64,000 bases of DNA, taken from Flavobacterium lacustre (lineage in GTDB: Bacteria > Bacteroidota > Bacteroidia > Flavobacteriales > Flavobacteriaceae). The notes beneath the pieces are model-generated. The model was not told where the DNA came from. It did not search any database and saw only the letters and a program-made list of their open reading frames with translations. Position 1 is the first letter of the stretch. Every line of letters begins with the position of its first letter. Shown here piece by piece: positions 31,949 through 49,258 of this stretch. The position numbers and the translations under genes are program-made. Where the stretch lies: positions 1,240,001 to 1,304,000 of the forward strand of contig NZ_CP114882.2 of the NCBI RefSeq assembly GCF_027474525.2, in the 5' to 3' direction.

Positions 31949-31990
31949 AATAAATACTCCTTCAGAACATTCATTAATTCGCAACCCTTA

Positions 31991-32039
31991 GGGGTACAAT
32001 TCGGGGCACATTATTTAAGTTGATATTTGTGCCCCGAAT
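31991..32039. promoter_or_regulatory. Repeated GGGGYACA motifs and 12-bp inverted repeat before the integrase
   Basis: GGGGTACA (31991-31998) and GGGGCACA (32003-32010) are direct repeats at 12-base spacing. TGTGCCCC (32028-32035) is an inverted third copy. The last two lie in a perfect 12-base inverted repeat (31999-32010 and 32028-32039, 17-base spacer). The position between tRNA and integrase fits arm-type integrase sites or an operator for the integrase gene. Confidence 0.6.
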
Positions 32040-32139
32040 AGTATGGAAACCCTAGTAAAATAAGGCAGTTCAGGAAATGAACATCTTGTTGTACTTTGAT
32101 ATTTTAATTAAATTATACTATCAAAAAGGTTACCACAAA

Positions 32140-33384
32140 ATGAAAACAACAATCTCAATTCTCTTTTACTTAAAGAGAGCCAAAGTAAATCCAAAAGGGT
32201 TAGTTCCCATTTTTCAAAGAATCACTGTTAATGGGAAACGAATTGACAAAAGTACAGGTAAATATATTGATCCACTTAAATGGTCAGTTGAGGGAGCTAA
32301 AATGAAAGGGACTTCGGAAGAAGCAAGAACAGTAAATAGTCACCTAGATATTTTAAAAGCTAAAGTTTTAGATGCTGAAAAGGAATTGCAGCGATATGGT
32401 GAAAATGTAGTTGCAGAAAATATCAAAAACAAAATCAATGGTATTGAAGAAAGAGAAAGAATGTTGCTTCAAATATTTCAAGAGCATAATGATAAAATGG
32501 AAGTTTTAGTTGGTCAGGAATATGCTGCAGGAACATTAGAACGCTACAAGACCTCATTAAGTCATACTAAGGATTTTATCAAATGGAAATATAGTCTTCA
32601 GGATATTAATATTCTTAAAATTGACCATGTATTTGTTACCGAATATGATTTTTATTTAAGAAGTGTTCGTAAATGTGCTAACAATACGACAGTAAAGTAT
32701 ATTAAAAATTTCATGAAAGTTATTAGGATATGTTTGTCCAATGGGTGGATTGATAAAGACCCGTTTATCAACTACAAAGCAAAGACTAAGGAAGTAGATC
32801 GATTTTTCCTAACAGAAGAACAGATTCACGCTATCGAAAATAAAGAACTGCACACAACAAGATTGAATCAAGTGAGAGATATTTTCTTGTTTAGTTGTTA
32901 CACGGGATTGGCTTATGTCGATGTAAAGAATCTGACTAATGAAAATATCAGTTTAGGGATTGATGGTGTAAAATGGATATTTACCAACAGGCAAAAAACA
33001 AAAATCCAGTCGAATATTCCGTTGTTACCATTAGCAGAAGAAATGATAAAAAAATATGCAAATAATCCTAAATGTATCAATGAAGGGAAATTAATGCCAG
33101 TGTTAAGTAATCAGAGAATGAACAGTTATTTAAAGGAAATAGCCGATTTATGTGGTATCGAGAAAGAACTCACGTTTCATATCGCCAGACATACTTTTGC
33201 AACTACCATTTTATTGAGTAATGGCGTCGCCATGGAGAGTGTAAGCAAAATGCTTGGCCATACTAACATAAAAACAACGCAGCACTATGCAAAGATTTTG
33301 AACAAGAAAGTGAGTGAGGATATGATGTCTTTAAGAACCAAATTAAGCCAAAAGGAGGCTGAAAAAAACCGTGAAATCTCATAA
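32140..33384 (+). CDS. Site-specific tyrosine recombinase (CTnDOT-type integrase)
   Basis: 414 residues from the ATG at 32140, preferred over an in-frame start at 32077 because MKTTISILFYLKRAK is the usual N terminus of this family. An arm-binding-type N-terminal domain (about 1-105), a SAM-like core-binding domain (about 110-215) and the catalytic domain (about 220-400) follow. Catalytic residues visible are HIAR (His347, Arg350), His374 in LGHTN and the nucleophile Tyr383 in QHYAKI. The usual first arginine, expected after CYTGL, is Ala258; Arg246 lies 12 residues before it. It probably integrates and excises the island at tRNA-Ser. Confidence 0.95.
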   Translation: MKTTISILFYLKRAKVNPKGLVPIFQRITVNGKRIDKSTGKYIDPLKWSVEGAKMKGTSEEARTVNSHLDILKAKVLDAEKELQRYGENVVAENIKNKINGIEERERMLLQIFQEHNDKMEVLVGQEYAAGTLERYKTSLSHTKDFIKWKYSLQDINILKIDHVFVTEYDFYLRSVRKCANNTTVKYIKNFMKVIRICLSNGWIDKDPFINYKAKTKEVDRFFLTEEQIHAIENKELHTTRLNQVRDIFLFSCYTGLAYVDVKNLTNENISLGIDGVKWIFTNRQKTKIQSNIPLLPLAEEMIKKYANNPKCINEGKLMPVLSNQRMNSYLKEIADLCGIEKELTFHIARHTFATTILLSNGVAMESVSKMLGHTNIKTTQHYAKILNKKVSEDMMSLRTKLSQKEAEKNREIS

Positions 33385-33487
33385 TCCCTCTATTTGAGAA
33401 TAAAGTAGCTTTTTTTGTATTAAAAATAGAGTTTAAAATCATAATATTTATATTTTTGTAGGAAATAACCAAATATATAGCCCCCGA

Positions 33488-34324
33488 ATGATTTCATTTC
33501 AAAACTTATTTCAGGAAGAGTTCTTACAAAAAGCCAACCAATTGCATAATCACAGAAAAGACAGAATCAACAATTCTAAAGAATTTATATTATGGGCAGA
33601 ACCAAAAATTAAAGAATTGCATTTATGGTTAAAGATGCATGACTTTAAAGATGATCAGGAAGAAATATGTTTTTTTAAAGAGATTAAACCGGATATATTT
33701 TCAAAATTAATTTTCCAAAAAGAGGTTTTACGAATTGAAACCAATACTCCAACCGGAAAGCAGCATAGTCGAAAATTTTATGAAGAGGAGTTAAAAAAAC
33801 TTTCCCAATATCCTCAAAAAGACATTAAATTTTACCACTACTACCGTTCGAATTCCAAAGAATTTGACCGTTTATATTTCACCAGGAAAACTAAAAAAAA
33901 CATATTAGAAACAGAATGTTTTCAAATCAATTCTGATACAAGACTCTCTACATGTTACGATTACAAGGTCGCCAAAATTATAGCAAATGATAATTTGGTT
34001 ACATACATAGAAAGCCAAATAAACAGGTTAAAAATGAAAAATAAAGAATCCCAAGAGCCTTATATATCAAAGTTACAATGGTCAGGAACTAAAACAGATT
34101 TGGCTGAATTAGTTTATGTCCTACATGCAGGAAAAATAATTGATAATGGCAAAACGGATATAAAAGAAATTGCTACACAATTAGGCAGAACTTTCAATAT
34201 AGATCTCAACGAAACCATTTACAGAAGTTATATTGATATTAAAAACAGAAAGAATTCCAAAACAAAATTCATTGATACGCTATCCGAAAATTTCAACAAA
34301 AAGATTTTTGAGGAAGAATATTAA
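33488..34324 (+). CDS. RteC-family protein
   Basis: 278 residues that I assign to the RteC family from overall sequence style: the N-terminal half rich in charged helices, then a basic FYHYYRSNSKEFDRLYFTRK segment, and a C-terminal KLQWSGTKTDLAELVYVLHAGKIIDNG stretch that is a winged-helix-like DNA-binding part. In CTnDOT, RteC activates the excision genes. Here it follows the integrase by about 100 bases and would be expected to act on the genes just downstream. No RteA/RteB two-component system is seen. Confidence 0.85.
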   Translation: MISFQNLFQEEFLQKANQLHNHRKDRINNSKEFILWAEPKIKELHLWLKMHDFKDDQEEICFFKEIKPDIFSKLIFQKEVLRIETNTPTGKQHSRKFYEEELKKLSQYPQKDIKFYHYYRSNSKEFDRLYFTRKTKKNILETECFQINSDTRLSTCYDYKVAKIIANDNLVTYIESQINRLKMKNKESQEPYISKLQWSGTKTDLAELVYVLHAGKIIDNGKTDIKEIATQLGRTFNIDLNETIYRSYIDIKNRKNSKTKFIDTLSENFNKKIFEEEY

Positions 34325-34380
34325 AAACGCGTAATTCCAATTACAAACAAATGCCACCCGTTTTTTAACAAAAAACACAA

Positions 34381-34540
34381 AATTCCCAGCTGGGAACGTA
34401 TTGGTAAAACGCCAATTTCGGACCAAAAAAGGACAAATCCTTGGAATGCAAAAAATGGGTTTTTTACAAAACCATTTTTTTTTGCCCAAAAACAAAGGGT
34501 TTACACGGTTTTGATAGAAAAATAATTCCCAGCTGGGAAC
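34381..34540. repeat. Two copies of a 17-bp sequence with a 14-bp palindrome, flanking a hairpin
   Basis: AATTCCCAGCTGGGAAC occurs at 34381-34397 and again at 34524-34540. Its core TTCCCAGCTGGGAA is a perfect palindrome. Between the copies lie GGAC-containing short repeats and an AT-rich hairpin (AAAAAATGG at 34450-34458 with CCATTTTTT at 34472-34480). The region is noncoding, just before the small HTH gene. Possible roles are operator, replication origin or transfer origin. Confidence 0.8.
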
Positions 34541-34605
34541 ACCTTGGAAGTTTATTCCAATCATTTGATATTATTTTGTCCATGTAATCAAAACAAAATA
34601 AAACA

Positions 34606-34908
34606 ATGAAAGTAAATCCCAAAAAACTGTTTCCGGAAGTAGATAATATTGAACTACTCAGCCACCAACCCATCACCAAAAGAGACCTGCTTAACTTTAG
34701 TAATTTGATCCTGGATGAAATCAAAGAAATGGTAGGCGCACAAGACAAACCGGCACAATGGCTCAAATCTTCCGAAGTACGAAAACTACTCAAAATCTCC
34801 CCAGGCACATTGCAAAATCTACGCATCAATGGCACCCTAAACTTCACCCGTATTGGCAGCATCATTTACTACAAATACGAAGACATTCTAAAAGTACTCA
34901 CCCCCTAA
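34606..34908 (+). CDS. Small helix-turn-helix DNA-binding protein (excisionase-like)
   Basis: 100-residue protein. Residues about 48-98 form a MerR/excisionase-type winged helix-turn-helix (WLKSSEVRKLLKISPGTLQNLRINGTLNFTRIGSIIYY, here shortened in reading to the pattern SSEVRKLL-S-TLQNLR-G-L---IG). The N-terminal half is acidic and helical. Such proteins in Bacteroidota elements act as excision factors or regulators. Its position after RteC and directly behind the duplicated palindrome suggests that it binds there or controls excision, by inference. The alternative frame inside it is a shadow. Confidence 0.85.
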   Translation: MKVNPKKLFPEVDNIELLSHQPITKRDLLNFSNLILDEIKEMVGAQDKPAQWLKSSEVRKLLKISPGTLQNLRINGTLNFTRIGSIIYYKYEDILKVLTP

Positions 34909-35002
34909 ATCAAATAATGTCATCTCTAGCGCAGCCGAGAGATACCATTAACATTTCACAACTCACGCTTCACCATTCACGACTCACTTTTCACTAAAAA
35001 AA

Positions 35003-35854
35003 ATGAACTACATCAAACACCTTACTGGTTTTTTCGAAAAAGTCTCAACTGATTTTGAACTAAACCCAACACACATAAGTCTGTACATGGCAATTTTTCA
35101 GTTCTGGAACCTCAACCGTTTTCAGAATCCAATAAGCATTACCCGGGATGAAGTCATGCGAATCAGTAAAATTTGTTCTAAGGCAACATATCACAAATGC
35201 ATGAGAGAAATGCACAACAAAGGATACTTAAAATATGAGCCTTCATACAACCCTTTTCGGGGAAGTATGGTGCATTTAATTAACTATTCAGAAGACTTAA
35301 AACCACCTCAAAAAAAAGACCGAAAAAAGACAATAAACAAACAAGTTATTGAACAAGTAGGCATGCAGGCTAATAATCAGGCTAATGAACAAGCGGTAAA
35401 CAAGCATCAAACTAGTAATGGGACAGGCACTGAACAAGCGCTGGTATCTTCTATAAACAATATAAACATTACAAACAAATCAAACATTTTAAACTTGGAG
35501 CAAGCACAAAATTTAAAAACTAAAAATGAAGAATTTTTCGAAGAAAAAGAAAAAAAGAAAAAAAAGTTGCGCGAAAAAAAAGAACCTTTTTTGAAGGAAA
35601 AAATCCCTCCCGAATGGCAAGAAGTCACAACATTTTTCAAAGAGAAAAATGCAACCGAAATCGAAGCCGAAAAATTCTTCAACCATTTTCAAAGTAACGG
35701 TTGGCTCGTGGGAGGAAAATCCAAAATGAAAGACTGGAAAGCAGCAGCAAGAAACTGGATCATGAACCAGAACAAATTCCAGCCAAAATCAAACCTACCC
35801 CAGCCGAACCATTTACAAATTTCAAATAATAAAAATTATGCCGAACCATTGTAA
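35003..35854 (+). CDS. Replication-like helix-turn-helix protein
   Basis: 283 residues. The N-terminal domain (about 1-95) looks like a winged helix: LNPTHISLYMAIFQFWN, ITRDEVMRISKICSKATYHK, MHNKGYLKYEPSYNPFRGS. A low-complexity, Gln/Asn- and Lys-rich linker follows (about 100-195). The C-terminal part (about 200-265) has PPEWQEVTTFFKEKNA and GKSKMKDWKAAARNWI, a segment seen in DnaD-like and phage replication proteins. I infer a replication or helicase-loading role. The stop overlaps the next gene by 17 bases, and that gene encodes an ATPase, which supports joint action. Confidence 0.7.
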   Translation: MNYIKHLTGFFEKVSTDFELNPTHISLYMAIFQFWNLNRFQNPISITRDEVMRISKICSKATYHKCMREMHNKGYLKYEPSYNPFRGSMVHLINYSEDLKPPQKKDRKKTINKQVIEQVGMQANNQANEQAVNKHQTSNGTGTEQALVSSINNINITNKSNILNLEQAQNLKTKNEEFFEEKEKKKKKLREKKEPFLKEKIPPEWQEVTTFFKEKNATEIEAEKFFNHFQSNGWLVGGKSKMKDWKAAARNWIMNQNKFQPKSNLPQPNHLQISNNKNYAEPL

Positions 35855-36497
35855 ATTAATCACCGATACTTTCGAAATTCAAAACAATCAGAAAATCTAT
35901 GATTTCAACAAATGCCTAGAATTTATCGAATACCAGGGAACAGCACATTATGGATCATCCTTTCAAATAAATATCCTGGACATCCCAATAATTTATAAAT
36001 TGATAATCTACATGATCAAAGACAATAAAGCGGCTTTAAAAGAACAAATTGACCTCAGCAAAGGTATTTTGTTATCAGGCCCAATTGGATGCGGAAAAAC
36101 CTCTATAATGAGCCTTATTAAGCCTTTTACAAGTCCTTTGTCAGAGTATAAAATAAAAACCTGTCGAGAACTATCGTTTGAATTTGCTAAAAAGGGGTTT
36201 GAAACCATCAACTATTATACGCTAAAGCAAGCAAATCAATCCAAATTAACGGGCTATTGCTTTGATGATTTAGGTGCCGAACAACAAATCAAACACTTCG
36301 GTAACGATTGTAATGTAATGGCTGAGGTATTGTTGGGTCGGTACGAGCAGTTTGTAGAAAATAAATGTATCACGCACATCACCTCTAATCTTTCAGCCTC
36401 CGAAATCGAAAGGATTTACGGTAACCGGATTCGTTCTAGGATGAGGTCAATGTTCAATCTTGTTGCCTTTGATAAGGAGGCAAAGGATAAACGTTAA
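35838..36497 (+). CDS. DnaC/IstB-like AAA+ ATPase
   Basis: 219 residues with a P-loop GPIGCGKT (81-88) and a Walker B block YCFDDLG (140-146). A sensor-1-like THITSNLS and an arginine-rich box near the C terminus (GNRIRSRMRSMFN) also fit. This is the layout of helicase loaders (DnaC) and transposition helpers (IstB). With no transposase nearby and a replication-like partner overlapping it by 17 bases, loading of the replicative helicase onto an excised element is the more attractive reading. That role is an inference. Confidence 0.82.
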   Translation: MPNHCKLITDTFEIQNNQKIYDFNKCLEFIEYQGTAHYGSSFQINILDIPIIYKLIIYMIKDNKAALKEQIDLSKGILLSGPIGCGKTSIMSLIKPFTSPLSEYKIKTCRELSFEFAKKGFETINYYTLKQANQSKLTGYCFDDLGAEQQIKHFGNDCNVMAEVLLGRYEQFVENKCITHITSNLSASEIERIYGNRIRSRMRSMFNLVAFDKEAKDKR

Positions 36498-36693
36498 AAG
36501 CAATTTTTCTAATTGTACACCCATTAAATAAAGGACCAAAGTTTAGCTTTAATCACTATGCAGTCAAACTATAGTTTAACAAAAAAACTAATATTCTACT
36601 ATTTTATATCGAAGAAGCAAAAAAATAAAAAAAACAGAATGAAATTTTTTAACAAGTACTTAAATCTGTCCACTTACTTTATGCCGAGATTTA

Positions 36694-37380
36694 CTATTTA
36701 CTTTTGTCCAAAGCAAAAGACAAACCAAAAATACCACAAACCATATGACCGTTTGAGTTATTACTCACTGCTGAGTGCTTACCGTTCCAAGTTAAATTTT
36801 GTCCATAGTTACTAAATGAGCTAAAGTCGAAAAACAAAGATGTTTTTTTTGAAATCATTATCATTGGCGTGATACCTAGAACAATTCCACCATAATTATC
36901 TCCGTTACTAACTTTTGGATTGTAATTTGAAGAGATTGGTTGCAAAATAGCAAGATGTAAGCCAGCATGAAACAGTAAGTTAAATCTAGAAAAATCTTTT
37001 TTCGATTTAATAAGACCATTGACGTTAAATACTCCTTGTACAGAAGTCCTAAATTGAGCTACTTCAAAAGGATTACTGCGATCGACTTTGTTATTTGAGA
37101 ATCGGTCAAAGGCAAGATCCATCTTTAGACCCATAATTTTAGAAAAATCATACCTAGCTCCAACAGTATAAGCATTTAATTTAAAATCATTAAACAATTG
37201 ATTATTAGTATTAGTAAAATAACCATCTGTATAAGGTCGGGTACCATAGCTAATTCCTGTTCCTATTTCAATTGACCATTTATTTGTGTGGGCTTTTACG
37301 AGTGTTGAATCTATTTTGTCTTGAGAAAAAACAGTATTTAGTACAAATAATAATAAGATAATAAGTTTGTTATTTTTCAT
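36694..37380 (-). CDS. Outer-membrane beta-barrel protein
   Basis: 228 residues from the ATG at 37380 (MKNNKLIILLLFVLNTVFSQ, a signal peptide). A longer start at 37413 overlaps a candidate -7 element and is rejected. The mature part has alternating amphipathic strands (WSIEIGTGISYGTRPY, KLNAYTVGARYDF, SRFNLLFHAGLHLAI, GGIVLGITPMIMI) consistent with an 8- to 10-strand OmpW/OmpA-like barrel. The end is GIFGLSFALDKSK. Function unknown. It may be cargo of the element or the first chromosomal gene beyond it; the sequence does not decide. Confidence 0.75.
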   Translation of the reverse strand: MKNNKLIILLLFVLNTVFSQDKIDSTLVKAHTNKWSIEIGTGISYGTRPYTDGYFTNTNNQLFNDFKLNAYTVGARYDFSKIMGLKMDLAFDRFSNNKVDRSNPFEVAQFRTSVQGVFNVNGLIKSKKDFSRFNLLFHAGLHLAILQPISSNYNPKVSNGDNYGGIVLGITPMIMISKKTSLFFDFSSFSNYGQNLTWNGKHSAVSNNSNGHMVCGIFGLSFALDKSK

Positions 37381-37410
37381 AAAAAAAAGATATCGATTGA
37401 AACTATTTCG

Positions 37411-37418
37411 CAAATGTA
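37411..37418 (-). promoter_or_regulatory. Candidate -7 element of the barrel-protein gene
   Basis: TACATTTG on the minus strand, 31 bases before the ATG at 37380, matches TAnnTTTG. No -33 TTG is clear. Confidence 0.45.
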
Positions 37419-37689
37419 TTTAATTAATTTCTTAATAAAAAAAGTACACCGTACATATAACAATTTCAAAACATTCTGAAAAATTTCGGTTAGTTTTTTA
37501 CGTTTTTTCAAGAATTTTAAATTAATAATAAGCTTTTTTTTAAATTTAAATATCTTTAAATCAATTAGTTATTGTGTTTTTTCGTTGGTCTGATTACTAT
37601 GAAATTATAAATCATAAATTGTTAATTTTTAGTTAACCTTCATTCTGGGTTTTTGCATTTATTTTGCGATTATAATTAAAAATTCAAAC
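37419..37689. other. AT-rich divergent intergenic region
   Basis: This separates the barrel gene (minus) from the TonB-dependent receptor gene (plus). A near-match TATTTTG lies about 30 bases before the receptor ATG. I see no tRNA, long inverted repeat or copy of the tRNA-Ser 3' end here. Confidence 0.4.
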
Positions 37690-40608
37690 ATGAAGTTTTT
37701 TTACACCCTAATTATTTCAATGATTTCCTATTGTTTTTTTGGACAGAATGGTACTATAAGTGGATCGGTTTTAGATGATTCTAATGGAAGAACTTTACCG
37801 GGAGTGAGTGTTGTTATCAAAGATTTAAAATTAAGTGCTTCTACAGACTCTGAAGGAAAATTTATTTTTAGAAATGTTACTCCTGGAAATTATGATGTTG
37901 AACTTTCTTATATAGGATATAAGTTAAAAATTATTTCGGAGGTAATTATTTCGGCGAATGAAATTACTTATTTAAATACAACTATTACAGAAAGTAAAAA
38001 CGAACTTAACGAGGTTGTTATTACTAAAACAAGAGCTAAAACAGAATCCGTAAAATCACTATTGGTGATGCAGAAAAATAGTGTTAGTGTATCAGATGGT
38101 ATTTCTGCAGAAACTATTAAAAGAACACCAGACAAAACTACTTCGGATGTTTTGAAGAGGATAAGTGGAGCCAGTATACAAGATAACAAATTTGTTATTA
38201 TTAGAGGTCTTAATGATAGATATAATGCGGCATTCTTGAACGGTGCTCCTTTACCAAGTTCAGAACCAGACAGAAAAGCATTTTCTTTTGATGTATTTCC
38301 TTCTAATATGTTGGATAATTTAATTATTACTAAAACGGCATCTCCAGATTTGCCGGGAGATTTTGCTGGTGGAGTTATTCAAATTAATACAAAAGCAGTA
38401 CCTGATAAAAATTTTCAAAGTCTTTCTATAGGAACGGGTTACAATACTATAACTACTTTTAAAGATAAAAAAAATTATGAAGGCGGTAAAACAGATTGGT
38501 TAGGAATTGATGACGGTACAAGAGCTATGGCATCAACGATTCCTAGTATGGAGGATTTTAATGCTTTAACTCCCCAAGAAAAAGCAAGAGTAGCTCAAAC
38601 TTTTGAGACAGATTGGAAGATTAATGATGAAAAGTTTTTGCCTAATTTGAATTTTCAATACACGATAGGGCATCATTTTGATTTTGATGAAAAAGTATTA
38701 GGAATGTTATTTTCGATTTCTAATAATCAAACCTTTAATTATACGCAAACCACTAGGAATGATTGGGATAATCCAGACCCAAATGTTCCTTCTGTATTGA
38801 CTGCAAAATTTTCTGATGAAAATTACTCTCAGCAAATGTTAACATCAACATTAGCAAATTTTTCATTTAAGTTTAATGATAATCATGCTGTAACTTTTAA
38901 AAATATTTTTAGTATCAATTCAACCGATTTGGTTGTAGATAGATATGGACAAAAAGATGTCAATGATACAAGGTACTTAAGTGCTAACGTTAGGTGGTTC
39001 ACTAGCAATAAAATTTATTCAGGACAATTAAATGGAGAGCATTATTTTTCTAAACCTAAAATTAAATTGAATTGGACTGGATTTTATAGCAATATAAATA
39101 GATCTATTCCAAACTTAAGAAGAAATATTTACTCTATTACAGACCCAAGCAGTTCTGTTTCTAGTGAAACAATTCCTGTTGCGGAGATTGCTAATGGTAA
39201 TGGAGGTGCGGATTATGGTGGAGGAATGTTTTTTTCTGAAAATAAAGAATCTATTTCTGGAAGTAAATTTGATCTAGCAAAGAAATTTAATATTGGGGAA
39301 GAATTGATAAATGAAATAAAAATAGGAGGTTTTTATCAAAGGAGAGATAGAGATTTTTTTGCTCGTCAATTGCAATATAATACCTATACATTAGGAGGTA
39401 ATTTTAATTATTCTTTATTAGAACTTCCTGATGCCACTATTTTTAATCAAGCTAACATGGGCGTTATTTCTCCGTCCGGAGTAACACCTGTCGTAAACGG
39501 ATTTACATTATATGATGCTTCAAAGTATACAGATGCTTATCAAGCTGGTTCCGATTTGAGTGCCGCATATTTGATGCTAGATAATAGATATAAGAGTTTT
39601 CGATTGGTCTGGGGAGTTAGGGTAGAGGATTATAATCAGACTCTATATTTTAAAGATAACAATGGTAATGCTACTAATGCAAATAACAAGCAAAAAGATT
39701 TTTTACCTTCTGCTAATTTGATTTACTCTATTGATAAAAAACAAAATCTTAGATTAAGCTATTCTAAAACATTGAACCGACCAGAATTTAGGGAATTGGC
39801 TCCGTTTGGTTTTTATGATTTTACGAGTCAATTTTTTACTCAGGGTGATTCTTTGAGAATTGCAAAAATACAAAATATAGATTTTAGATATGAACTGTAT
39901 CCGGGAAAAGGACAAGTACTTTCATTCTCCTACTTCAATAAAAAATTTAAAAATCCAATAGAAATTATTCAAGGTGTAAACAATAAAACTATTACGTATA
40001 AAAATGCATCAAGTGCTAAAAATAGCGGAATAGAGCTTGAATTTAGGTTTTTATTGAGTTCAATTTTTAAATCTGAAAACACAACTGTTTTCGATGATAT
40101 TACTATGTTCTCGAATGTTGCAATCATAAAATCAGAAGCAGATGTTTCTAATATTGCTTCTGGAAACACAGAAAAATCAAGACCCTTACAAGGACAATCG
40201 CCCTACATTTTTAATGCGGGACTACAATATTTAAATGTAGAAAATGGCTGGGCTTTATCTACAAATATCAATAGAGCGGGAAATAGGATTGCTTATGCAT
40301 CCAGTGAAATAAAACCAGCAATATGGGAAAAAGGAAGAACATTTTTAGACGTTCAAATTGCAAAATCGTTTTTGAAAAACAAATTAGAATTAAAGTTTAA
40401 CATACAAAATATATTAGCTCAGGATTTGATTTTTTATCAAAATAATTATAGAAACAGTGTTGATTATGGTTCGCTCGAAACATTAGCTAATCAAGTCTTT
40501 ACAGGAGATTATCATTATGAGGATGGTTATAATGCTGCAGATGATGATGTTATTTGGAAAACTATATTTGGAAGAAGTTTTTCATTATCGGCTACTTACA
40601 ATTTTTAA
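37690..40608 (+). CDS. TonB-dependent receptor
   Basis: 972-residue outer-membrane active transporter. A signal peptide (1-19) precedes a carboxypeptidase-regulatory-like beta-sandwich (about 22-105, GTISGSVLDDSNGRTLPGVSV). The plug domain follows (about 130-235, SDVLKRISGASIQ, VIIRGLNDRYNAAFLNG, DLPGDFAGGVIQI). A 22-stranded barrel ends in FGRSFSLSATYNF with terminal Phe. It is not a SusC in the strict sense: no susD is adjacent. The GH1-like gene starts 15 bases after the stop and a T9SS surface protein follows, so it may import a compound that those proteins help to bind. The ligand is unknown. Confidence 0.92.
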   Translation: MKFFYTLIISMISYCFFGQNGTISGSVLDDSNGRTLPGVSVVIKDLKLSASTDSEGKFIFRNVTPGNYDVELSYIGYKLKIISEVIISANEITYLNTTITESKNELNEVVITKTRAKTESVKSLLVMQKNSVSVSDGISAETIKRTPDKTTSDVLKRISGASIQDNKFVIIRGLNDRYNAAFLNGAPLPSSEPDRKAFSFDVFPSNMLDNLIITKTASPDLPGDFAGGVIQINTKAVPDKNFQSLSIGTGYNTITTFKDKKNYEGGKTDWLGIDDGTRAMASTIPSMEDFNALTPQEKARVAQTFETDWKINDEKFLPNLNFQYTIGHHFDFDEKVLGMLFSISNNQTFNYTQTTRNDWDNPDPNVPSVLTAKFSDENYSQQMLTSTLANFSFKFNDNHAVTFKNIFSINSTDLVVDRYGQKDVNDTRYLSANVRWFTSNKIYSGQLNGEHYFSKPKIKLNWTGFYSNINRSIPNLRRNIYSITDPSSSVSSETIPVAEIANGNGGADYGGGMFFSENKESISGSKFDLAKKFNIGEELINEIKIGGFYQRRDRDFFARQLQYNTYTLGGNFNYSLLELPDATIFNQANMGVISPSGVTPVVNGFTLYDASKYTDAYQAGSDLSAAYLMLDNRYKSFRLVWGVRVEDYNQTLYFKDNNGNATNANNKQKDFLPSANLIYSIDKKQNLRLSYSKTLNRPEFRELAPFGFYDFTSQFFTQGDSLRIAKIQNIDFRYELYPGKGQVLSFSYFNKKFKNPIEIIQGVNNKTITYKNASSAKNSGIELEFRFLLSSIFKSENTTVFDDITMFSNVAIIKSEADVSNIASGNTEKSRPLQGQSPYIFNAGLQYLNVENGWALSTNINRAGNRIAYASSEIKPAIWEKGRTFLDVQIAKSFLKNKLELKFNIQNILAQDLIFYQNNYRNSVDYGSLETLANQVFTGDYHYEDGYNAADDDVIWKTIFGRSFSLSATYNF

Positions 40609-40623
40609 TTGTTCATGAATTAA

Positions 40624-41856
40624 ATGATTTTGAATAATTTAAATAAGGATGCATTACTTCGTACCTATGATTTTGGCGACAATTTTCTTTGGGGTATGTC
40701 ATCCAGTGAACATTTATCACCTAAAAGTAGAGATGAAACTTTTTTTTTAAATTCGAAACATCAATTTTCAACCATTGATGTTTCTTTTTTTAAGACGGAA
40801 TTAGATAAATACAAACAAGATATTGATTTAATAAAACAATTAGGTATTCCTAATTTTAAGTTTTCTCTATCTTGGTCCAAAATACTTCCCGATGGAACAG
40901 GTAAAATAAGTACTGAGGCTATTAATTTTTATCATGATGTACTCGATATTTGTATAGAGAATAAAATAGAACCTTTTGTAACGCTGTATGATTCTTGTTT
41001 ACCCTCAGTATTAGAGGAAAAAGGTGGATGGTCTAATCGTGAAATCTTATCTTGGTTTGAGAACTATGTTGCTATTTGTGTTAATTCGTTCAAAGAAAAA
41101 GTTTCCTATTGGATTGTTTTAAACGATCCATCCTTTTTTACCGGAGCTGGTCATTTTTTAGGAATTGATTCTTTAGGAAAGAAAGGGGCTAATAAATTTT
41201 TACCCGCTTTACATCATGCCGTACTTTGTCAATCTATTGGTTTTAGGATAATAAAACAAATAAAAATCAATGCTCAAGTGGGGACTTTTTTTTCATGTCA
41301 TTATATTATTTCAAATACATATAATGATAAAGACATAAAAGCTACTGAGCGAATAGATGCATTGTTGAATAGAACTTTTATTGAGCCTTTATTAGGGTTA
41401 GGATATCCAACACAAGTCTTACCTTTTTTGAAAAATGTTTCTAAATATAGTAGCATTGGTGATGATGATTTGATTAAAGTAGATTTTGATTTTATAGGGT
41501 TGCAAAATTGTACAAGAGAAATAGCATCCCACGATTCATTAGTTCCTTATTTGAATGCTAAACTTATAAAAAATGATAAAATTAGAGTTAAAAAAACACA
41601 TTTAAATTATCATATTTACCATGAGCTAATTTACCTTATTATTAAAAAATATAGTAAATATGAGTGTGTAAAAAAAATATTTATAGTTGAAAATATTGCG
41701 CACCCCCTAGAAGAAATTGATTTTGATATTACTATTGGTTTACAAAAAGCAAATGGGATACAGTCTTTTTTAAGTCAAATGTTAAATGCAAAACAAAGTG
41801 GAGGCAAAGTCAACGGTTATTTTGTTTCAATGCTAAAAGAATTTAAACCTGATTAG
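40624..41856 (+). CDS. Glycoside hydrolase family 1-like protein with degraded active site
   Basis: 410 residues with clear GH1 (beta/alpha)8-barrel similarity: FLWG at 21-24, FSLSWSKILPDG at 80-91, TLYDSCLPSVLEEKGGWSNRE at 120-140 and FIVENIAHP at 353-361. Most catalytic-site residues differ from active GH1 enzymes. The acid/base motif NEP is NDP (Asp168). TLYHWDLP has become TLYDSCLP. The N-terminal Gln of the sugar-binding site is replaced. YRFS is FKFS. The protein ends soon after VNGYFVSML, without the usual FEW loop. Only the nucleophile position (Glu356) is kept. No signal peptide is seen. It is probably a non-catalytic binding or regulatory protein, or an enzyme with changed chemistry. 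It lies 15 bases behind the TonB receptor. Confidence 0.8.
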   Translation: MILNNLNKDALLRTYDFGDNFLWGMSSSEHLSPKSRDETFFLNSKHQFSTIDVSFFKTELDKYKQDIDLIKQLGIPNFKFSLSWSKILPDGTGKISTEAINFYHDVLDICIENKIEPFVTLYDSCLPSVLEEKGGWSNREILSWFENYVAICVNSFKEKVSYWIVLNDPSFFTGAGHFLGIDSLGKKGANKFLPALHHAVLCQSIGFRIIKQIKINAQVGTFFSCHYIISNTYNDKDIKATERIDALLNRTFIEPLLGLGYPTQVLPFLKNVSKYSSIGDDDLIKVDFDFIGLQNCTREIASHDSLVPYLNAKLIKNDKIRVKKTHLNYHIYHELIYLIIKKYSKYECVKKIFIVENIAHPLEEIDFDITIGLQKANGIQSFLSQMLNAKQSGGKVNGYFVSMLKEFKPD

Positions 41857-42385
41857 CATAAGTCCATTTATTCTTTTAGAAGCGATTGATTATATTTCGT
41901 TCCTTAAATCGCCTATGGGTTAATTACTACTTGATTTGCATTGAATTGCGAAATAAAACTTCCAATAACCTAAACTTTTACGGCAAAGAACCTAAAATTT
42001 TACGCTACTGTACTTAAAATATTAGGTCTTTGTTGTATTTTTTTACGTATTTGTACTTATTTAAAAATTTAAAATAATAAAAATTGTTGGTTGAGCATTA
42101 CTATTTTAAATCTTTGATGCGCCAATAAGTATTAGGTTAAAATTTTAAAAAAAGGGATACAGGTCATATCGTGTTGAAAATTTGAAATTAAGCGTATTGA
42201 TGTTGTCAAGCAAAATAATAGTTGTGTCTCGTTTTTAGTAGTTTAGCGTGTGGACTAGTATTCTATTTTACGATTTTTTAGATAAATATATAGAGATTTA
42301 ATTTTGGTTTTAAATAAGTTCTTAACGATTTGTTAAATTTAGTAACAATCAATTTGCTTAAATGTTTTATTTATTTAATTTTTAG
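41857..42385. other. Long AT-rich intergenic region with short repeats
   Basis: 588 bases separate the GH1-like gene from the next large gene. Apart from the direct repeats at 41967-42026 and the promoter at its end, I see no gene, tRNA or strong terminator in it. The 3' ends of the upstream operon must lie here. Confidence 0.5.
41967..42026 (+). repeat. Direct repeat pair with an inverted partial third copy
   Basis: AACCTAAACTTTTACG (41967-41982) and AACCTAAAATTTTACG (41989-42004) differ at one base and are 22 bases apart, about two helical turns. GTACTTAAAATATTAGGT (42009-42026) read in reverse resembles the same motif. The arrangement suggests a regulator binding site. Confidence 0.55.
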
Positions 42386-42419
42386 TTGGCATTCAGTTTT
42401 GTACTTAAATATAGATTTG
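42386..42419 (+). promoter_or_regulatory. Predicted promoter of the 1647-residue T9SS protein gene
   Basis: TTG at 42386-42388, a 23-base spacer and TAGATTTG at 42412-42419 match the Bacteroidota consensus at its upper spacing limit. The -7 element lies 26 bases before the ATG. Confidence 0.55.
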
Positions 42420-42444
42420 TCCTGTTTAACAAAAAACAGAAAAA

Positions 42445-45400
42445 ATGAAAAAAAACTATTTAATCGCAATTTTGTTCCTTATCGTGAATATGGTAAGTGC
42501 TCAAATTGAACAAACTTCGTACAGAGGTGCTTTTGCTCCAGCCCCCACAGCAATGTGGACAGATAGTTGGACAAATTATGATCCGCAGAATACCGTTTAT
42601 GGGGCTGCAACAGTAACTGTTAGTGCTGATATAACGGCTAACACCACATGGACCACTGGTAAAGTCTATTCTTTGTCAGGTCTTATTAATGTTAGAAACA
42701 ATGCTGTTTTAACGATTCAACCAGGTGTTATCGTTAGAGGTGCCGGTGCGGGTGCTGCTTTAGTTATTACTAAGGGAGCTAAAATTAATGCTGTTGGTAC
42801 TGCTGCTAGTCCGATTGTATTTACTTCAAATAATGCACCTGGCTCTAGAAGTAAAGGGGATTGGGGAGGAATTATCCTTTTAGGTAAAGGGGCTTTCAAC
42901 TTAAATAACGGTGTAAATAATATCGAAGGTCTTACGGCTTCTGTTTATACAGAATACGGTGGAGGTTTGACTCCGGATAATGCGGATAGTTCGGGTACTT
43001 TAAAATATGTTCGTATCGAATTTGGTGGATATGTGTATGCTCCAAACAGTGAAATCAATGGTTTGACTATGGGTGCTGTTGGTAGTGGTACTACCATAGA
43101 CTACGTTCAAGTGTCTTTTGCTAACGATGATGCTTTTGAGTGGTTTGGTGGATCAGTAAATTGTAAACACTTGGTTTCTTACAGAAACTTGGATGACGAT
43201 TTTGATACTGATAATGGATATAGTGGATCAGTTCAATATGCTTTGGCTATTAGAGATCCACAGATTGCTGATGCTCCTGCAGTTTCAACTTCAGAAGGTT
43301 TTGAATCTGATAACAATGCTGCTGGTTCTACTGTGACTCCTGCTACAAGTGCTATTTTTACTAACTGTACTTTAATAGGGCCATCCTACCGTGTTACTTT
43401 AACTAATGGTGGAACTTTAGCTTCTGGTTACAAGAAAACTGCTCGTATCAGAAGAGCTTCTCAATTGAAAATTTTCAACTCTTTGTTTATGGACTTTCAA
43501 GAAGGTCTTCACATTGATGGTGTAGCTGCTGAAAATAATGCAGTTGCTGGAACATTGAAATTCAAAAACAACATTCAAGCCGGGATATTGACTAAATCTA
43601 TACAAGTAACATCTCCGGGTACAATTACAGCAGGTGTTAATCCTGCGTTTAACATGACTAACTGGTATACTGCTAATGGTAATTCAACTGTTGCTTCAAA
43701 CTCAGGTTTGTTGACAGCTGCTTATGATTCTGACGCTACTACTTATACAGGACTAGATTATAGACCAGCATCAGGATCAATTGTTGAGACAGGTTCTGAT
43801 TTTACTGATAGTGCTTTTGCAGGAAAATTAGTAGCTACTCCGGTATTAGCAGAAGCTATTGAATTTACTTCTTACAGAGGTGCTTTTGCTCCAGCTCCTA
43901 CAGCAATGTGGACAAACAACTGGACAAACTATGATCCACAAAATACGGTTTACTCTTCAACAGGAATTACTGTAAGTGGAGATATCACTGCAAACACTAC
44001 TTGGACTACAGGTAACACTTACCTTTTACAAGGTTTAACTTATGTTAAAAACGGTGCTACTTTAACAATTCAACCAGGGGTTACTATTAGAGGTGCTGGT
44101 GCTGGTTCAGCTTTAATCATCACTAAAGGATCTAAAATCAATGCTGTTGGTACTGCTACAAGTCCAATTGTATTTACTTCAAACAACGCAGCAGGTTCAA
44201 GACAAAAAGGAGACTGGGGAGGAATTATCCTTTTGGGTAAAGGTTCTTTTAACTTGAATAATGGTATAAATAATGTTGAAGGGATTACTGCTTCTGCAGA
44301 TACAGAATATGGTGGAGGTTTAACTCCAGATGATACTGACAACTCAGGAACATTGAAATATGTTAGAATTGAATTTGGTGGATATGTTTATGCTCCAAAC
44401 AGTGAAATCAATGGTTTGACTATGGGTGCTGTAGGTAGTGGAACTACTATCGATTATGTTCAAGTATCTTTCGCTAACGATGATGCTTTCGAATGGTTTG
44501 GTGGTGCAGTAAACTGTAAACACTTAGTTTCTTACAGAAACTTAGATGACGATTTTGATACAGACAACGGATATAGCGGTAAAGTTCAATATGCTTTAGC
44601 TATTAGAGATCCACAAATTTCAGATAACCCAACTGTTTCTACTTCAGAAGGTTTTGAGTCTGATAACAATGCTACAGGTACTGCTGCTACTCCATATACA
44701 AGTGCTATTTTTACCAACTGTACTTTGATAGGACCATCTTACAGAGTTTCTTTACCTAATGGTGGAACTTTAGCTACTGGTTTCAAAAGAGGTGCTAGAA
44801 TTAGAAGAGCTTCTAAATTGAGTATCTATAACTCAATCTTTATGGATTTCCAAGAAGGTCTTCATATTGATGGTTTGGCTACTGAGACTAATGCTTTGAA
44901 TGATGAATTGAAATTCAAAAACAACATTTTAGCTGGTATTGTTACTACTGCAAAAACTTTACAAGTAAATGCTTCTGGTAATAACGCTTCATTTAATATC
45001 GCAACTTGGTATGCTGCTAATGGAAACACTACTCAAGCTGCAAGCGCAGGTTTGTTGACATTGCCTTACAATACTTCTGATGCTACTGTTTACACAGGAT
45101 TAGATTATAGACCAGCAACTGGTTCTCCAGCACTTTCAAATTCAAACTTTACTGGTTTGGTTGCTAAAGTAGCTCCAATTGTTGTGACTCCACTTAACAT
45201 CTGTAAAGGAACTACTGCTACTGCTTTAACTGCTACTTTAAATGGTGGTGTGTCTTTGAAATGGTATTCTACTGCAACTATTGCTACAGTTTTAACTGCT
45301 GCTCCAGTACCTGCTACTACAACAGCACCTTCTACAAAATCTTATTTTGTATCACAAGTGTATGCTGATGGAACAGAAGGACCAAGAGCTGAAATTGTTG

Positions 45401-47388
45401 TTAATATAAATCCTATATTGGCTACTCCAGGTACAATCACTGGTATTGCTGCTCAAGGAGCTTTAGTAGGAACTACAACTACTGCAACTTATTCTATCTC
45501 AGAAGTTGTTGATGCTGTTTCTTATCTTTGGACTGCACCATTAGGAGTTAATATCGTTTCTGGTCAAGGTTCTAATACTATTACAGTTAATTTTAAAAAT
45601 GTTCCTGCTGGTGCTGGTGCTATTGGTAACCTTGCTGTAGCTGCTGTAAATGCTGCAGGTTGTAATAGTCTTGCTAAAACTTTAGCACTTACAAAAGTTT
45701 TACCTGCTGCACCTACTACTGTAAAAATGACTGATGCTTTATTGCCGTTGCCTATTACAGGAATACCTAATGCAGTAACTTCATTTGCTAAATACATGGG
45801 TACATCTACTGTGTTGACACTAACAGCGGCTCCAGTTGCTACTGCAACTTCTTATGTTTGGGAATTGCCTACAGGTGTTACTCTTTTATCGGGAGCTACT
45901 ACAACATCAGGAGTTACCTCTGGTACTTCAAATGTAATCACTATTGATTTCGCTGGTGTAACTAAGGAAAATACTTTTAATTATTCTACAACAGCTACTG
46001 TTCCAGTATCAACCAATGTATTACGAATTGGTGTAAAAGCTAAAAATGGAACAGGTTCTTCTGTAACTGCTAATGCAACTGCTGTTAACCCTACTACCAC
46101 ATCTACAGCTAAATTGTTAACATTAACAGCTGTTTTACCTGCTGCTCCTGCTGCAATAAAAGTAACTAATGATGCAGTTAGTACTACTACAGCGGTAACT
46201 GTTATCAGTAAATTTATTGGTACAAATACGGTATTCACATTGACAGCTACTCCTTCTGTATTAGCTACTTCTTACGCATGGGAATTGCCAACAGGCGTTA
46301 CTCAATTATCTGGCGGTACTTCAAATGTAATTACTGTTAATTTTGCGGATGTTGCTGCTGGTACAACTTCTTTATACTTAGGTGTAAAAGCGGTAAATGG
46401 TATTGGATCTTCTGTAATAAGTACAAATGGTACATTAGTTCCTTCAACTTCATCTACAGCTAAATTGTTGAAATTAACTGCAACTGTTCCTGCCGCTGTA
46501 GCTACAGTTGTGGGACAAATTGCTGGTGTATGTGGTAGCAGTTCTTATGATTACACAATTACTCCTTCTCTTTTAGCTAATTCTTATGTTATTACTGCCC
46601 CAACAGGTTCAGTAGTTACTTCAGCTAACAATGCATCTAATACTTCTAATGTATTAGCAACTTCTGACTTGACATTTACAGTTACTTACCCTTCTGGGTT
46701 TACCGTAACAACTGCTACTGTTACTGCTCAAAAATCTATTGTTATTGCAGCTGTAAACGGAGTAGGTACTAGTCTTACAAATAAAACAGTTGCTTTAACT
46801 ACGGCTATGCCTGCAATAGGGGTTGCTACAGGATCTGCTGGTATTACATCATTTACTAGATGTGCTACTCAAACATTCTCAGTTCCTGCGGTTGTCGGAG
46901 CTACAGATTATGTTTGGACTGTTGTTGATGGTGCGGTAATTGTTTCTGGTCAAGGAACAAACTCTGTTGAAATTGATTTCGCTGCAGTTTCTGCCTTGAA
47001 AACGACTAACAAATTAACAGTTGTTGCTAAAAACACTTGTGGTATTTCTAGTGCTGTTAAATCAATTACTTTATCTAGTACTGCTTGTCCTGCTCCTGCA
47101 AGATTAGCTGCTCCTGAAGTTGTTGCAGTAAGTGCTACAGAGGTTTATCCAAATCCTACATCAGGAAATTTCAATATTGATATAACAGCTTCAAAAGTTG
47201 GTGTTGTTGAAATGGCCATATATTCATTTGAAGGTCAAATGGTAGTAAGCCCTAAAACAGTACAATTGCAAGAAGGACTAAATACAATTAACGAAGATAT
47301 TTCTTCTTTGAAAAATGGTATTTATTTTGTTCAAATTGCAAATTCTACTACTAATGAAGTGATCGTTAAAAAAGTGATCAAACAATAA
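42445..47388 (+). CDS. T9SS-exported surface protein with duplicated beta-helix-like domain and Ig/PKD-like array
   Basis: 1647 residues. A signal peptide (1-19, ending SAQ) precedes two homologous domains of 451-residue period (from about 24 and 475) that share TSYRGAFAPAPTAMW, GSKINAVGTA-type strands, GDWGGIILLGKG, FANDDAFEWFGG and YRNLDDDFDTDNGYSG. Repeated short beta-strands suggest a right-handed beta-helix with acidic, possibly calcium-binding loops. Residues about 920-1560 are Ala/Thr-rich Ig- and PKD-like repeats. A T9SS type A sorting domain closes the protein (about 1567-1647, VYPNPTSGNF ... GIYFVQIAN ... VKKVIKQ). It is probably surface-attached or secreted; ligand unknown. It lies downstream of the TonB receptor and GH1-like genes but has its own promoter. 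Confidence 0.87.
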   Translation: MKKNYLIAILFLIVNMVSAQIEQTSYRGAFAPAPTAMWTDSWTNYDPQNTVYGAATVTVSADITANTTWTTGKVYSLSGLINVRNNAVLTIQPGVIVRGAGAGAALVITKGAKINAVGTAASPIVFTSNNAPGSRSKGDWGGIILLGKGAFNLNNGVNNIEGLTASVYTEYGGGLTPDNADSSGTLKYVRIEFGGYVYAPNSEINGLTMGAVGSGTTIDYVQVSFANDDAFEWFGGSVNCKHLVSYRNLDDDFDTDNGYSGSVQYALAIRDPQIADAPAVSTSEGFESDNNAAGSTVTPATSAIFTNCTLIGPSYRVTLTNGGTLASGYKKTARIRRASQLKIFNSLFMDFQEGLHIDGVAAENNAVAGTLKFKNNIQAGILTKSIQVTSPGTITAGVNPAFNMTNWYTANGNSTVASNSGLLTAAYDSDATTYTGLDYRPASGSIVETGSDFTDSAFAGKLVATPVLAEAIEFTSYRGAFAPAPTAMWTNNWTNYDPQNTVYSSTGITVSGDITANTTWTTGNTYLLQGLTYVKNGATLTIQPGVTIRGAGAGSALIITKGSKINAVGTATSPIVFTSNNAAGSRQKGDWGGIILLGKGSFNLNNGINNVEGITASADTEYGGGLTPDDTDNSGTLKYVRIEFGGYVYAPNSEINGLTMGAVGSGTTIDYVQVSFANDDAFEWFGGAVNCKHLVSYRNLDDDFDTDNGYSGKVQYALAIRDPQISDNPTVSTSEGFESDNNATGTAATPYTSAIFTNCTLIGPSYRVSLPNGGTLATGFKRGARIRRASKLSIYNSIFMDFQEGLHIDGLATETNALNDELKFKNNILAGIVTTAKTLQVNASGNNASFNIATWYAANGNTTQAASAGLLTLPYNTSDATVYTGLDYRPATGSPALSNSNFTGLVAKVAPIVVTPLNICKGTTATALTATLNGGVSLKWYSTATIATVLTAAPVPATTTAPSTKSYFVSQVYADGTEGPRAEIVVNINPILATPGTITGIAAQGALVGTTTTATYSISEVVDAVSYLWTAPLGVNIVSGQGSNTITVNFKNVPAGAGAIGNLAVAAVNAAGCNSLAKTLALTKVLPAAPTTVKMTDALLPLPITGIPNAVTSFAKYMGTSTVLTLTAAPVATATSYVWELPTGVTLLSGATTTSGVTSGTSNVITIDFAGVTKENTFNYSTTATVPVSTNVLRIGVKAKNGTGSSVTANATAVNPTTTSTAKLLTLTAVLPAAPAAIKVTNDAVSTTTAVTVISKFIGTNTVFTLTATPSVLATSYAWELPTGVTQLSGGTSNVITVNFADVAAGTTSLYLGVKAVNGIGSSVISTNGTLVPSTSSTAKLLKLTATVPAAVATVVGQIAGVCGSSSYDYTITPSLLANSYVITAPTGSVVTSANNASNTSNVLATSDLTFTVTYPSGFTVTTATVTAQKSIVIAAVNGVGTSLTNKTVALTTAMPAIGVATGSAGITSFTRCATQTFSVPAVVGATDYVWTVVDGAVIVSGQGTNSVEIDFAAVSALKTTNKLTVVAKNTCGISSAVKSITLSSTACPAPARLAAPEVVAVSATEVYPNPTSGNFNIDITASKVGVVEMAIYSFEGQMVVSPKTVQLQEGLNTINEDISSLKNGIYFVQIANSTTNEVIVKKVIKQ
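42514..45190 (+). repeat. Two tandem 1.35-kb domain repeats in the T9SS protein gene
   Basis: The copies start at 42514 and 43867, a period of 1353 bp (451 codons). Amino-acid identity is high over most of the length, while DNA third positions differ in many places. The duplication is therefore older than that in the 1146-residue protein. Confidence 0.9.
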
Positions 47389-47404
47389 TTCTAGGTTTTA
47401 TTTT

Positions 47405-47433
47405 AAGGCCGTCATTTATGGCGGCCTTTTTAT
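47405..47433 (+). terminator. Intrinsic terminator after the 1647-residue protein gene
   Basis: AAGGCCGTCAT pairs with ATGGCGGCCTT (one G-T wobble; the inner pairs probably open into the loop), followed by a T run. It lies 16 bases past the stop. Confidence 0.85.
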
Positions 47434-47847
47434 TTTATTTTTCGCAATTGTAATTGTGATTCTTTTTAAATTTAAAAGGGTTTAAATACAATATGAAGAA
47501 TGAATAGCAGTATTCTAAATACATATATTGCTCTTGATGTAAAAGCATCTTACGCAAATAGGAAAAGTAGAGATTATATGTTTCTATTTGCTTGAGAAAT
47601 TTTTATTAATTATGTAAATCAGGTTTGGAACACTAAGTTAATTCATTTTTAATTATAAGAAGAAGTGTTCATTTGAATTCTTTTTTTAACAGTTATAAAG
47701 TATAAAATAAAAAAATCTGTCTTGCAAAAGTTGGAAATAAATTAACTCTAAATGAATGAATAGAATTCAAAAAACCGAGCACAAACGAATTGTAGATTTT
47801 ATTCACTCTAGTAACATGAAAATTTTTTTAAATACCATAATTTTTAC
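47434..47847. other. AT-rich intergenic region before the polysaccharide cluster
   Basis: About 410 bases with no plausible coding frame or RNA gene. A promoter for the long downstream operon is expected here, but I could not find a full TTG/TAnnTTTG match that I would defend. Confidence 0.4.
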
Positions 47848-49098
47848 ATGTTGAAAAACAATACTAAAATATATTTGTCTTCACCTCATATGCGGGGCAC
47901 TGAAAAGAAGTATGTTAATGAAGCTTTTGATTCAAATTGGATAGCTCCTTTGGGTAAAAACGTAGATTATTTTGAAAGTGATCTTAAAACATACTTGAAT
48001 AGAAATGTTTTTGTTACTGCCTTATCTTCCGGAACTGCAGCAATTCATTTGGGCTTAATACTCTTAGGTGTCAAAGCAGATGATGAAGTCATCTGTCAAT
48101 CATTAACATTTACCGCCTCAGCTAATCCAATTTTATATTTGCAAGCTACTCCTATATTCGTAGATAGCGAACTAGATACATGGAATCTCTGTCCAATCGC
48201 TTTAGAAGCTGCAATAATTGACAGGATTAAATTAGGCAAAAAACCCAAAGCTATAATAACGGTGCATTTGTATGGGAATCCTTATAAAATTGATGCTGTT
48301 CGAGCAATTGCAGACCGTTTTCAAATACCCATTCTTGAAGATGCTGCCGAAGCTTTAGGAAGTACTTTTAAAGGGCAAAAATGCGGAACTTTTGGTGATT
48401 TAAGTGTTTTATCCTTCAATGGAAATAAAATTATTACCACATCTGGCGGTGGAGCACTTGTTAGTTATTCTGAAAATATTAAGGCAAAAGCAATTTTTTT
48501 AGCAACACAATCTAAAGATAATGCTATTCATTATGAACACTCCGAAATTGGATACAATTACAGATTGAGTAATATATGTGCTTCTATTGGTCGCGGCCAA
48601 ATGGAAGTTCTAGATGAGCATGTATCCTTGCGGAGAGGAATGCATCAATTTTACAAAAAACTATTTCACAATGTTCCAGGTGTTAGTGTTTTTGATGTGC
48701 CAAATAGAGATTATTTTTCAAATCATTGGTTGACTGTAATAACAATTGATCCAGAAGAAAGTTCTGGGGTAGATTGTACTATATTGCGTTTAGCATTTGA
48801 AGCAGAGAATATTGAGTCGAGATTGATTTGGAAACCATTGCATCTTCAACCATTATATGAAAAATTTCCATATTATGGAACTACTATTGCCGAAGGTTTA
48901 TTTGGCAAAGGACTTTGTCTGCCGTCAGGGTCAAACTTAACTCAAAGTGAAAAAATGAGAATCCAAAATGTGATTCAACGTACTTTTAAAATAAAAAAAG
49001 CCTTACCTATTGAAGTTGCAGTTTCACGAAAAAACAGACTGCTAAATTATAATTTGGTAATGAAATTTTTTCTTGAAAATATTTTTAAAACAACATAA
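47848..49098 (+). CDS. DegT/DnrJ/EryC1/StrS-family sugar aminotransferase
   Basis: 416-residue PLP-dependent enzyme that aminates a nucleotide-activated keto-sugar. The family features are present: SSGTAAIHLGL (phosphate binding, about 60-70), EDAAEALGS (cofactor Asp165) and SFNGNKIITTSGGG with the PLP lysine Lys194. The N terminus KIYLSSPHMRGTEKKYVNEAF and the overall style resemble PglE-type enzymes that make UDP-4-amino sugars on the way to bacillosamine-like residues. A PglC-like transferase closes the window, which supports this, but a partner acetyltransferase of the PglD type is not seen. It is the first gene of the cluster, 160 bases before the flippase. Confidence 0.9.
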   Translation: MLKNNTKIYLSSPHMRGTEKKYVNEAFDSNWIAPLGKNVDYFESDLKTYLNRNVFVTALSSGTAAIHLGLILLGVKADDEVICQSLTFTASANPILYLQATPIFVDSELDTWNLCPIALEAAIIDRIKLGKKPKAIITVHLYGNPYKIDAVRAIADRFQIPILEDAAEALGSTFKGQKCGTFGDLSVLSFNGNKIITTSGGGALVSYSENIKAKAIFLATQSKDNAIHYEHSEIGYNYRLSNICASIGRGQMEVLDEHVSLRRGMHQFYKKLFHNVPGVSVFDVPNRDYFSNHWLTVITIDPEESSGVDCTILRLAFEAENIESRLIWKPLHLQPLYEKFPYYGTTIAEGLFGKGLCLPSGSNLTQSEKMRIQNVIQRTFKIKKALPIEVAVSRKNRLLNYNLVMKFFLENIFKTT

Positions 49099-49258
49099 TT
49101 AACTGTAAATTAATTATGTGTTAGTTCATAAAATGGGACTGGCATCAGCGAAGCTTTATATAAAGATTGATGAAAAATTATTTAAAAAGTAATACTAATC
49201 TTTTCAAAAGCACTAAACAGGGGCTTAATTTTTTGCACCACTTTATAAATTAAAATTA

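Follow-up and report, generated by a model that had tools for sequence, protein, structure and literature searches.

Canonical glycoside hydrolase family 1 (GH1) beta-glucosidases, e.g. T. maritima BglA (1od0) and the F. aquatile protein P0131 (locus L129), and Klotho and beta-Klotho, which are animal GH1 pseudoenzymes (PMC7828330, PMC10628560), are the closest described systems to the gene analysed here. This GH1-like gene is located on a 64,000-nucleotide stretch of the Flavobacterium lacustre genome (contig NZ_CP114882.2, positions 1,240,001 to 1,304,000; referred to as the window), downstream of a TonB-dependent receptor gene. Its product shares the fold, the nucleophile Glu and the barrel core with the canonical enzymes, but lacks nine of eleven functional residues and the last helix, and our trees place the degenerate clade to which it belongs within the canonical Flavobacterium GH1. 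Compared with Klotho it is bacterial, single-domain, presumably cytosolic and of separate origin inside Flavobacterium GH1. In the open-licence literature, as represented mostly by titles and abstracts, we found neither a bacterial GH1 pseudoenzyme nor an account of this gene family. We consider it probable (roughly 0.6) that the gene encodes a pseudoglycosidase, i.e. a non-catalytic cytoplasmic protein that serves in binding or as an adaptor, is produced along with the receptor and probably has a new task other than cutting sugars. The loss of residues, the existence of the clade, the order of the genes and the purifying selection are shown by the data, and the fold is taken from a predicted model.

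Active-site residues of the GH1-like protein

The open reading frame (ORF) starts with ATG and has no internal stops, and its product matches the PF00232 Glyco_hydro_1 profile (7.5e-62, 209.7 bits; curated cut-off 22.6) and hence is a family member; it is the only PF00232 match in the window's genome (E <= 0.001). With the TIGR03356 GH1 beta-glucosidase equivalog profile it stays under the cut-off (240.8 vs 478.5 bits), and the canonical homologue in locus L122 scores 513.9 bits. The GH1 (beta/alpha)8 barrel is present in the predicted model (a first model, with a predicted local distance difference test score of 67.6, was replaced by a second). Judged by eye, the start of the protein is not signal-peptide-like, which points to a cytoplasmic location, and no relatives were found in viral contigs. 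Within the gene, at 40755-40784, an 11-pair stem is followed by seven T; the T run is absent in the relative G381, and the number of such sites (2 found vs 0.7 +/- 1.0 expected) is not clearly above chance.

Residues were assigned by alignment to T. maritima BglA (1od0), and the features of the gene are as follows, where "rows" are the 59 degenerate homologues described below:

40624-41856, + strand: GH1-derived protein of 410 aa that lacks most of its catalytic machinery (ORF, profile match, alignment)
40858-40860, + strand: Lys79, replacing a catalysis-related Arg (Sf-beta-gly Arg97) still present in 42 of 59 rows (alignment)
40990-40995, + strand: Asp123-Ser124 (TLYDSCLP), replacing His121-Trp122 (alignment to 1od0)
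41125-41127, + strand: Asp168, replacing the acid/base Glu166; Glu in the nearest relatives (alignment)
41509-41511, + strand: Cys296, replacing Tyr295; Cys in 50 of 59 rows (alignment)
41689-41691, + strand: Glu356 (BglA Glu351), the former nucleophile; Glu in 56 of 59 rows (alignment)
41827-41856, + strand: Ser402 (for Trp398) and early end, without the Glu405/Trp406 loop and the last helix (alignment, model)

The window protein keeps two of the eleven functional residues, Asn167 and Glu356, which bears out the first-pass annotation of the window in that most of the active site is lost while the fold and the nucleophile remain. The individual losses it had named are also seen: the HW pair is replaced, the acid/base Glu is Asp168 when compared with Glu166 of 1od0, the N-terminal Gln is gone (Leu or His at the Gln20 site, depending on the alignment), and Glu405/Trp406 of the C-terminal FEW loop are absent together with everything beyond. 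Our alignment adds Tyr295 to Cys296, Arg to Lys79 and the Thr preceding the nucleophile, which is Val355. The catalytic Glu pair is consequently incomplete, with Glu356 retained and Asp168 as its counterpart, and in the glycone-binding set (Gln20, His121, Asn165, Trp398, Glu405 and Trp406) Asn165 alone is retained.

The roles of the GH1 functional residues are described in PMC4322223 and PMC5148593. According to the latter, alanine mutants at three equivalent sites of an insect GH1 retain 0.00012 (Q39), 0.00036 (W143) and 0.000011 (E451) of the wild-type kcat/Km, replacement of the acid/base Glu with Asp in the insect enzyme Sf-beta-gly leaves 0.00044 (a loss of ~2000-fold), and W452A and T398A have zero activity remaining, while Y331F (0.016), R97M (0.021) and E451Q (0.04) are milder. 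Because the window protein combines many such damaging changes, beta-glucosidase activity is very unlikely by analogy with these mutants. Such proteins are called beta-glucosidase or family 1 glycoside hydrolase in several sources, so sugar metabolism predicted from these names is overstated.

The degenerate clade and its constraint

Among the first-listed 120 of 1243 homologues, 57 keep 11/11 functional residues, six keep 6-9 and 57 keep four or fewer, the last being 56 members of the window's clade and P0103. With a second search added, 59 degenerate rows (window included) were scored in two groups, A (n=48, omitting P0022, P0023, P0026 and P0028, which we regarded as near-duplicates of P0021) and B (n=11). 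The 44-row canonical set was picked for an intact motif, i.e. its 11/11 score is by construction, and outside it are the partly degraded P0055, P0062, P0066, P0079, P0094, P0103, P0110 and P0127 and some near copies.

Gln20, His121, Trp122, Trp398, Glu405 and Trp406 are each retained in 0/59 degenerate rows. His121 is replaced by Asp in 58, Trp122 by Ser in 44 and Phe in 11, and Trp398 by Ser in 49, while Asn165 is retained in 51; the N293 column has Gln in the canonical rows and in almost all group A rows. All 11 group B rows have Gln at the acid/base position, a likeness to myrosinase-type GH1, which we take to have Gln there; in contrast to that type, the remaining sugar site is gone in group B.

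A canonical beta-glucosidase altered in this strain only is refuted by these data except at residue 168: the sugar-site losses are clade-wide, being common to the 58 other scored rows and beyond chance, and normal catalytic residues in homologues, the finding that would have pointed to such a strain-specific change, are seen for the acid/base only. There the nearest relatives P0002 (84%) and P0003 (81%) carry Glu and lack Asp168, which makes Asp168 a late substitution in the lineage of the window gene. Asp recurs in 6/59 rows and is therefore a minority state.

In a tree with 18 sampled rows the degenerate rows form a single clade inside canonical Flavobacterium GH1 (support 100/100), and in a tree without 20 near copies a 48-row group has a Shimodaira-Hasegawa-like approximate likelihood ratio test value of 98. 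A clade also taking in P0055, P0103, P0110 and the degenerate gene of G123 was rejected (p 9e-8). For the G123 gene alone the tree favours a separate origin, not significantly so (approximately unbiased test, p 0.107 for joining it). Rows outside the clade, including P0055, P0103 and P0110, lost parts of the site independently, which may mean that such a conversion was started repeatedly in this group.

Selection was estimated as omega (dN/dS) from pairwise GY94 codon fits; many synonymous distances (dS) exceed 3 and are saturated, and the usable pairs are G000-G381 (G000 being the window's genome), G381-G003, G349-G218, G025-G160, G027-G128 and G117-G294. The dN/dS test proposed in the first-pass annotation gave a value far below 1: omega is 0.086 for the window and G381 (dS 1.15, twice the log-likelihood difference against omega 1 being 182.9) and 0.126 for G381 and G003. 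Canonical GH1 pairs with usable dS have 0.049-0.069, the neighbouring receptor has 0.050 for G000-G381, and the saturated degenerate pairs have 0.012-0.073. With NG86 the G000-G381 value is 0.16, and four degenerate pairs range between 0.16 and 0.27 vs 0.05 and 0.15 for five canonical pairs. From these comparisons, the GH1-like gene is constrained, approximately 1.5-2 times more loosely than its canonical counterparts. The window gene thus combines loss of the catalytic motif with purifying selection, as expected of a pseudoglycosidase.

Divided by part, the window-G381 omega is 0.126 for the active-site loops, 0.065 for the rest and 0.108 for residues 358-410, all far from 1, and for G381-G003 loop 26-60 reaches up to 0.32. 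Conservation is low at 26-60 (0.35) and 358-392 (0.37); the barrel core is highly conserved. Segment 246-275 has a conservation of 0.80 in group A vs 0.73 in the canonical enzymes, with 14/15 of the canonical-fixed residues kept in group A and 12/15 across the two groups together.

The receptor locus and the putative ancestral module

The neighbours of the GH1-like gene in the window are:

36694-37413, - strand: divergent 239-aa protein without a Pfam match, kept beside the receptor in several genomes (comparison)
37690-40608, + strand: TonB-dependent receptor (CarboxypepD_reg-like, plug and barrel domains), with its stop codon 15 bases ahead of the start of the GH1-like gene (profile matches)
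42386-42419, + strand: promoter-like TTG-N23-TAnnTTTG ahead of the HELIX gene (by pattern alone, which occurs 6 times on the window + strand)
42445-47388, + strand: secreted repeat protein with PKD_6, Ig_7 and a type IX secretion system (T9SS) sorting tail, labelled HELIX, a beta-helix fold being a guess (profile matches)

We take the TTG-N23-TAnnTTTG pattern to be the Bacteroidota promoter consensus. An Rfam scan of 31000-50000 gave tRNA-Ser and nothing else.

The TonB receptor noted earlier is confirmed as the neighbour, with a 15-base gap, and the frame distance is <=29 bases in the window, L119, L039, L120, L127 and L058, which suggests that the two genes are co-transcribed. In these six loci the GH1-like gene is the sole gene between receptor and HELIX and in L121 it is accompanied by an extra DOMON gene, i.e. 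the order holds in 7/7 degenerate-clade loci with flanks; the homologue search advised at first pass has accordingly recovered relatives that share both the substitutions and the neighbour. A degenerate gene in this same place is present in G123 (L126), and the broken G409 gene (L128) is still downstream of the receptor.

Loci scored without the intact-motif choice are those that matched the query best rather than a random sample, and the 97 rows scored with context include three canonical genomes twice and some short flanks. Of these, 80 show no close relative of the receptor within view, and their GH1 is canonical (79 with 11/11 and L090 with 10, Gln20 being unaligned), eight (5 genomes) have a canonical GH1 beside the receptor and nine a degenerate or broken one. 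Another 55 loci were scored without context: 47 keep 11, two distant loci keep 10 and six are degenerate, all six coming from genomes already mentioned.

HELIX adjoins the receptor in most receptor loci examined. At 20 further receptor loci fetched HELIX is directly next in 16, after a DOMON gene in two, upstream in one and cut by the contig end in one, and a GH1 gene is present in 0/20, which makes the GH1-like gene an accessory to a receptor-HELIX core. A tblastn search for GH1 remnants between receptor and HELIX in nine empty loci and two with the DOMON gene found none convincing (best E 0.004 over 18 residues). The receptor and T9SS repeat protein (window 37690-47388) are a recurrent Flavobacterium pair, with nothing, a DOMON gene, a GH1 module or a GH1-like gene in between.

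Canonical relatives in Bacteroidota are frequently set together with an LpxH-like metallophosphoesterase and a glycosyltransferase of the MJ1255/VC2487 family (scoring under the family cut-off). This three-gene module, the product of which may be a glycolipid, recurs across Bacteroidota (L122:7768-11033, L124, L042, L048, L060 and others). In Flavobacterium it is complete between TonB receptor and HELIX in L122, L124 and L042, represented by glycosyltransferase and GH1 in L123, and by a canonical GH1 alone in L129 (F. aquatile). In L125 (11034-12287, G274) a GH1 with 11/11 functional residues ends right after the FEW loop and intact partner genes adjoin, possibly an early degradation step or an assembly fault.

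In 16 of 29 genomes searched the glycosyltransferase is present at >=54% identity, and GH1 is canonical in 16/16 of these. G000, G381, G003, G295, G260 and G123 have just a 36-38% relative, G409 has one of 48%, and none was found in G020 in this 29-genome search. The 36-38% relative adjoins an LpxH-like gene without GH1 in the five genomes opened (G000, G381, G295, G260 and G123). In the window's genome this second pair is at G000:C1:1901766-1903672 (L185), and in L186-L188 it is near putative obg-like and adenylate-kinase-like genes. Five genomes (G012, G327, G267, G121 and G402) have a canonical GH1 yet no glycosyltransferase, which breaks a strict rule; loss of this partner accompanies active-site loss and does not force it.

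The proposed non-catalytic role and its alternatives

That the protein is an enzyme of new specificity, with Glu356 and the carboxylate at 168 acting as a pair on another glycoside or a non-sugar substrate in a site rebuilt around Asp123 and Cys296, seems quite unlikely. The kept nucleophile, Glu or Asp at 168 in 48/59 rows and the almost fixed Asp123 and Cys296 agree with it, but group B has the acid/base Gln (11/11), the Glu405/Trp406 loop is missing in 59/59, the Thr before the nucleophile is retained in just 2/59 and lost in the window, and the Glu to Asp cost in Sf-beta-gly is ~2000-fold (PMC5148593).

Several observations weigh against a non-catalytic binding protein. The acid/base site is Glu in the majority of the degenerate rows (Glu 42, Asp 6, Gln 11) and the nucleophile Glu is retained in 56/59, so some chemistry is possible. 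Selection is looser than on the canonical genes, and conservation is lowest in the active-site loops, which disfavours a well-defined ligand pocket at the original site. Moreover, the G295 copy is truncated at 379 aa with stops beyond, the G409 copy is broken with a remnant of ~280 aa, and the gene is absent from the similar receptor locus in G175 (receptor 73% identical); the function is therefore dispensable in some species.

The main rival, in our estimate unlikely, is a slowly decaying relic, the use of which was lost with the partner genes and which is kept for now through its position in the receptor operon. The locus no longer has the phosphoesterase and the glycosyltransferase, the genome contains no close orthologue of the latter, the degenerate rows stop at varied points (370-413 aa, some possibly cut by contig ends), and the G295 stops, the G409 remnant, the 20 receptor loci missing GH1 and the somewhat relaxed selection all suit decay. 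Against it are the low omega, the likewise constrained shortened C-terminus, the dozens of distinct long open forms (to ~50% identity) and the fixation of specific new residues. The first-pass conclusion that the intact 410-codon frame means no decay stands in part: the frame is intact and the selection test favours constraint in this lineage, but an intact frame is no proof by itself, given relatives with truncated, broken or missing copies.

For the pseudoglycosidase we envisage the following route. A canonical ancestor would have belonged to the LpxH-like phosphoesterase/glycosyltransferase/GH1 module, perhaps acting on a glycolipid, and in one Flavobacterium lineage the module would have ended up between the receptor gene and the T9SS protein gene. 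Phosphoesterase and glycosyltransferase would then have been lost, and the GH1 would have been stripped of its C-terminal loop and its sugar site. Constraint appears to have persisted in the barrel core, in segment 246-300 and in the pocket floor (Asp123, Gln294, Asn295, Cys296 and Glu356). With the catalytic loops gone or flexible, and the pocket floor and one barrel part held, the kept parts most likely bind a small ligand or a protein partner, candidates being imported cargo, a glycolipid from the former pathway or a protein, and such binding would tune the receptor operon or the handling of imported cargo. A doubtful extension would make the protein a bacterial counterpart of Klotho, i.e. 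a cytosolic non-catalytic component of TonB uptake, with the floor (Asp123, Glu356, Cys296 and Asn295) rebuilt for cargo, possibly a metal or an acidic small molecule, and the 246-300 face binding a partner.

Pseudoglycosidases are a known kind of protein, and this one fits that kind, with host group and operon both new, as is its likely location in the cell. It would represent a bacterial example of an ordinary enzyme turned into a pseudoenzyme under constraint, for which a single genus contains sisters that are canonical, partly degraded or broken, and the loss of partner genes together with a new position in a receptor operon is the likely genomic setting of the conversion.
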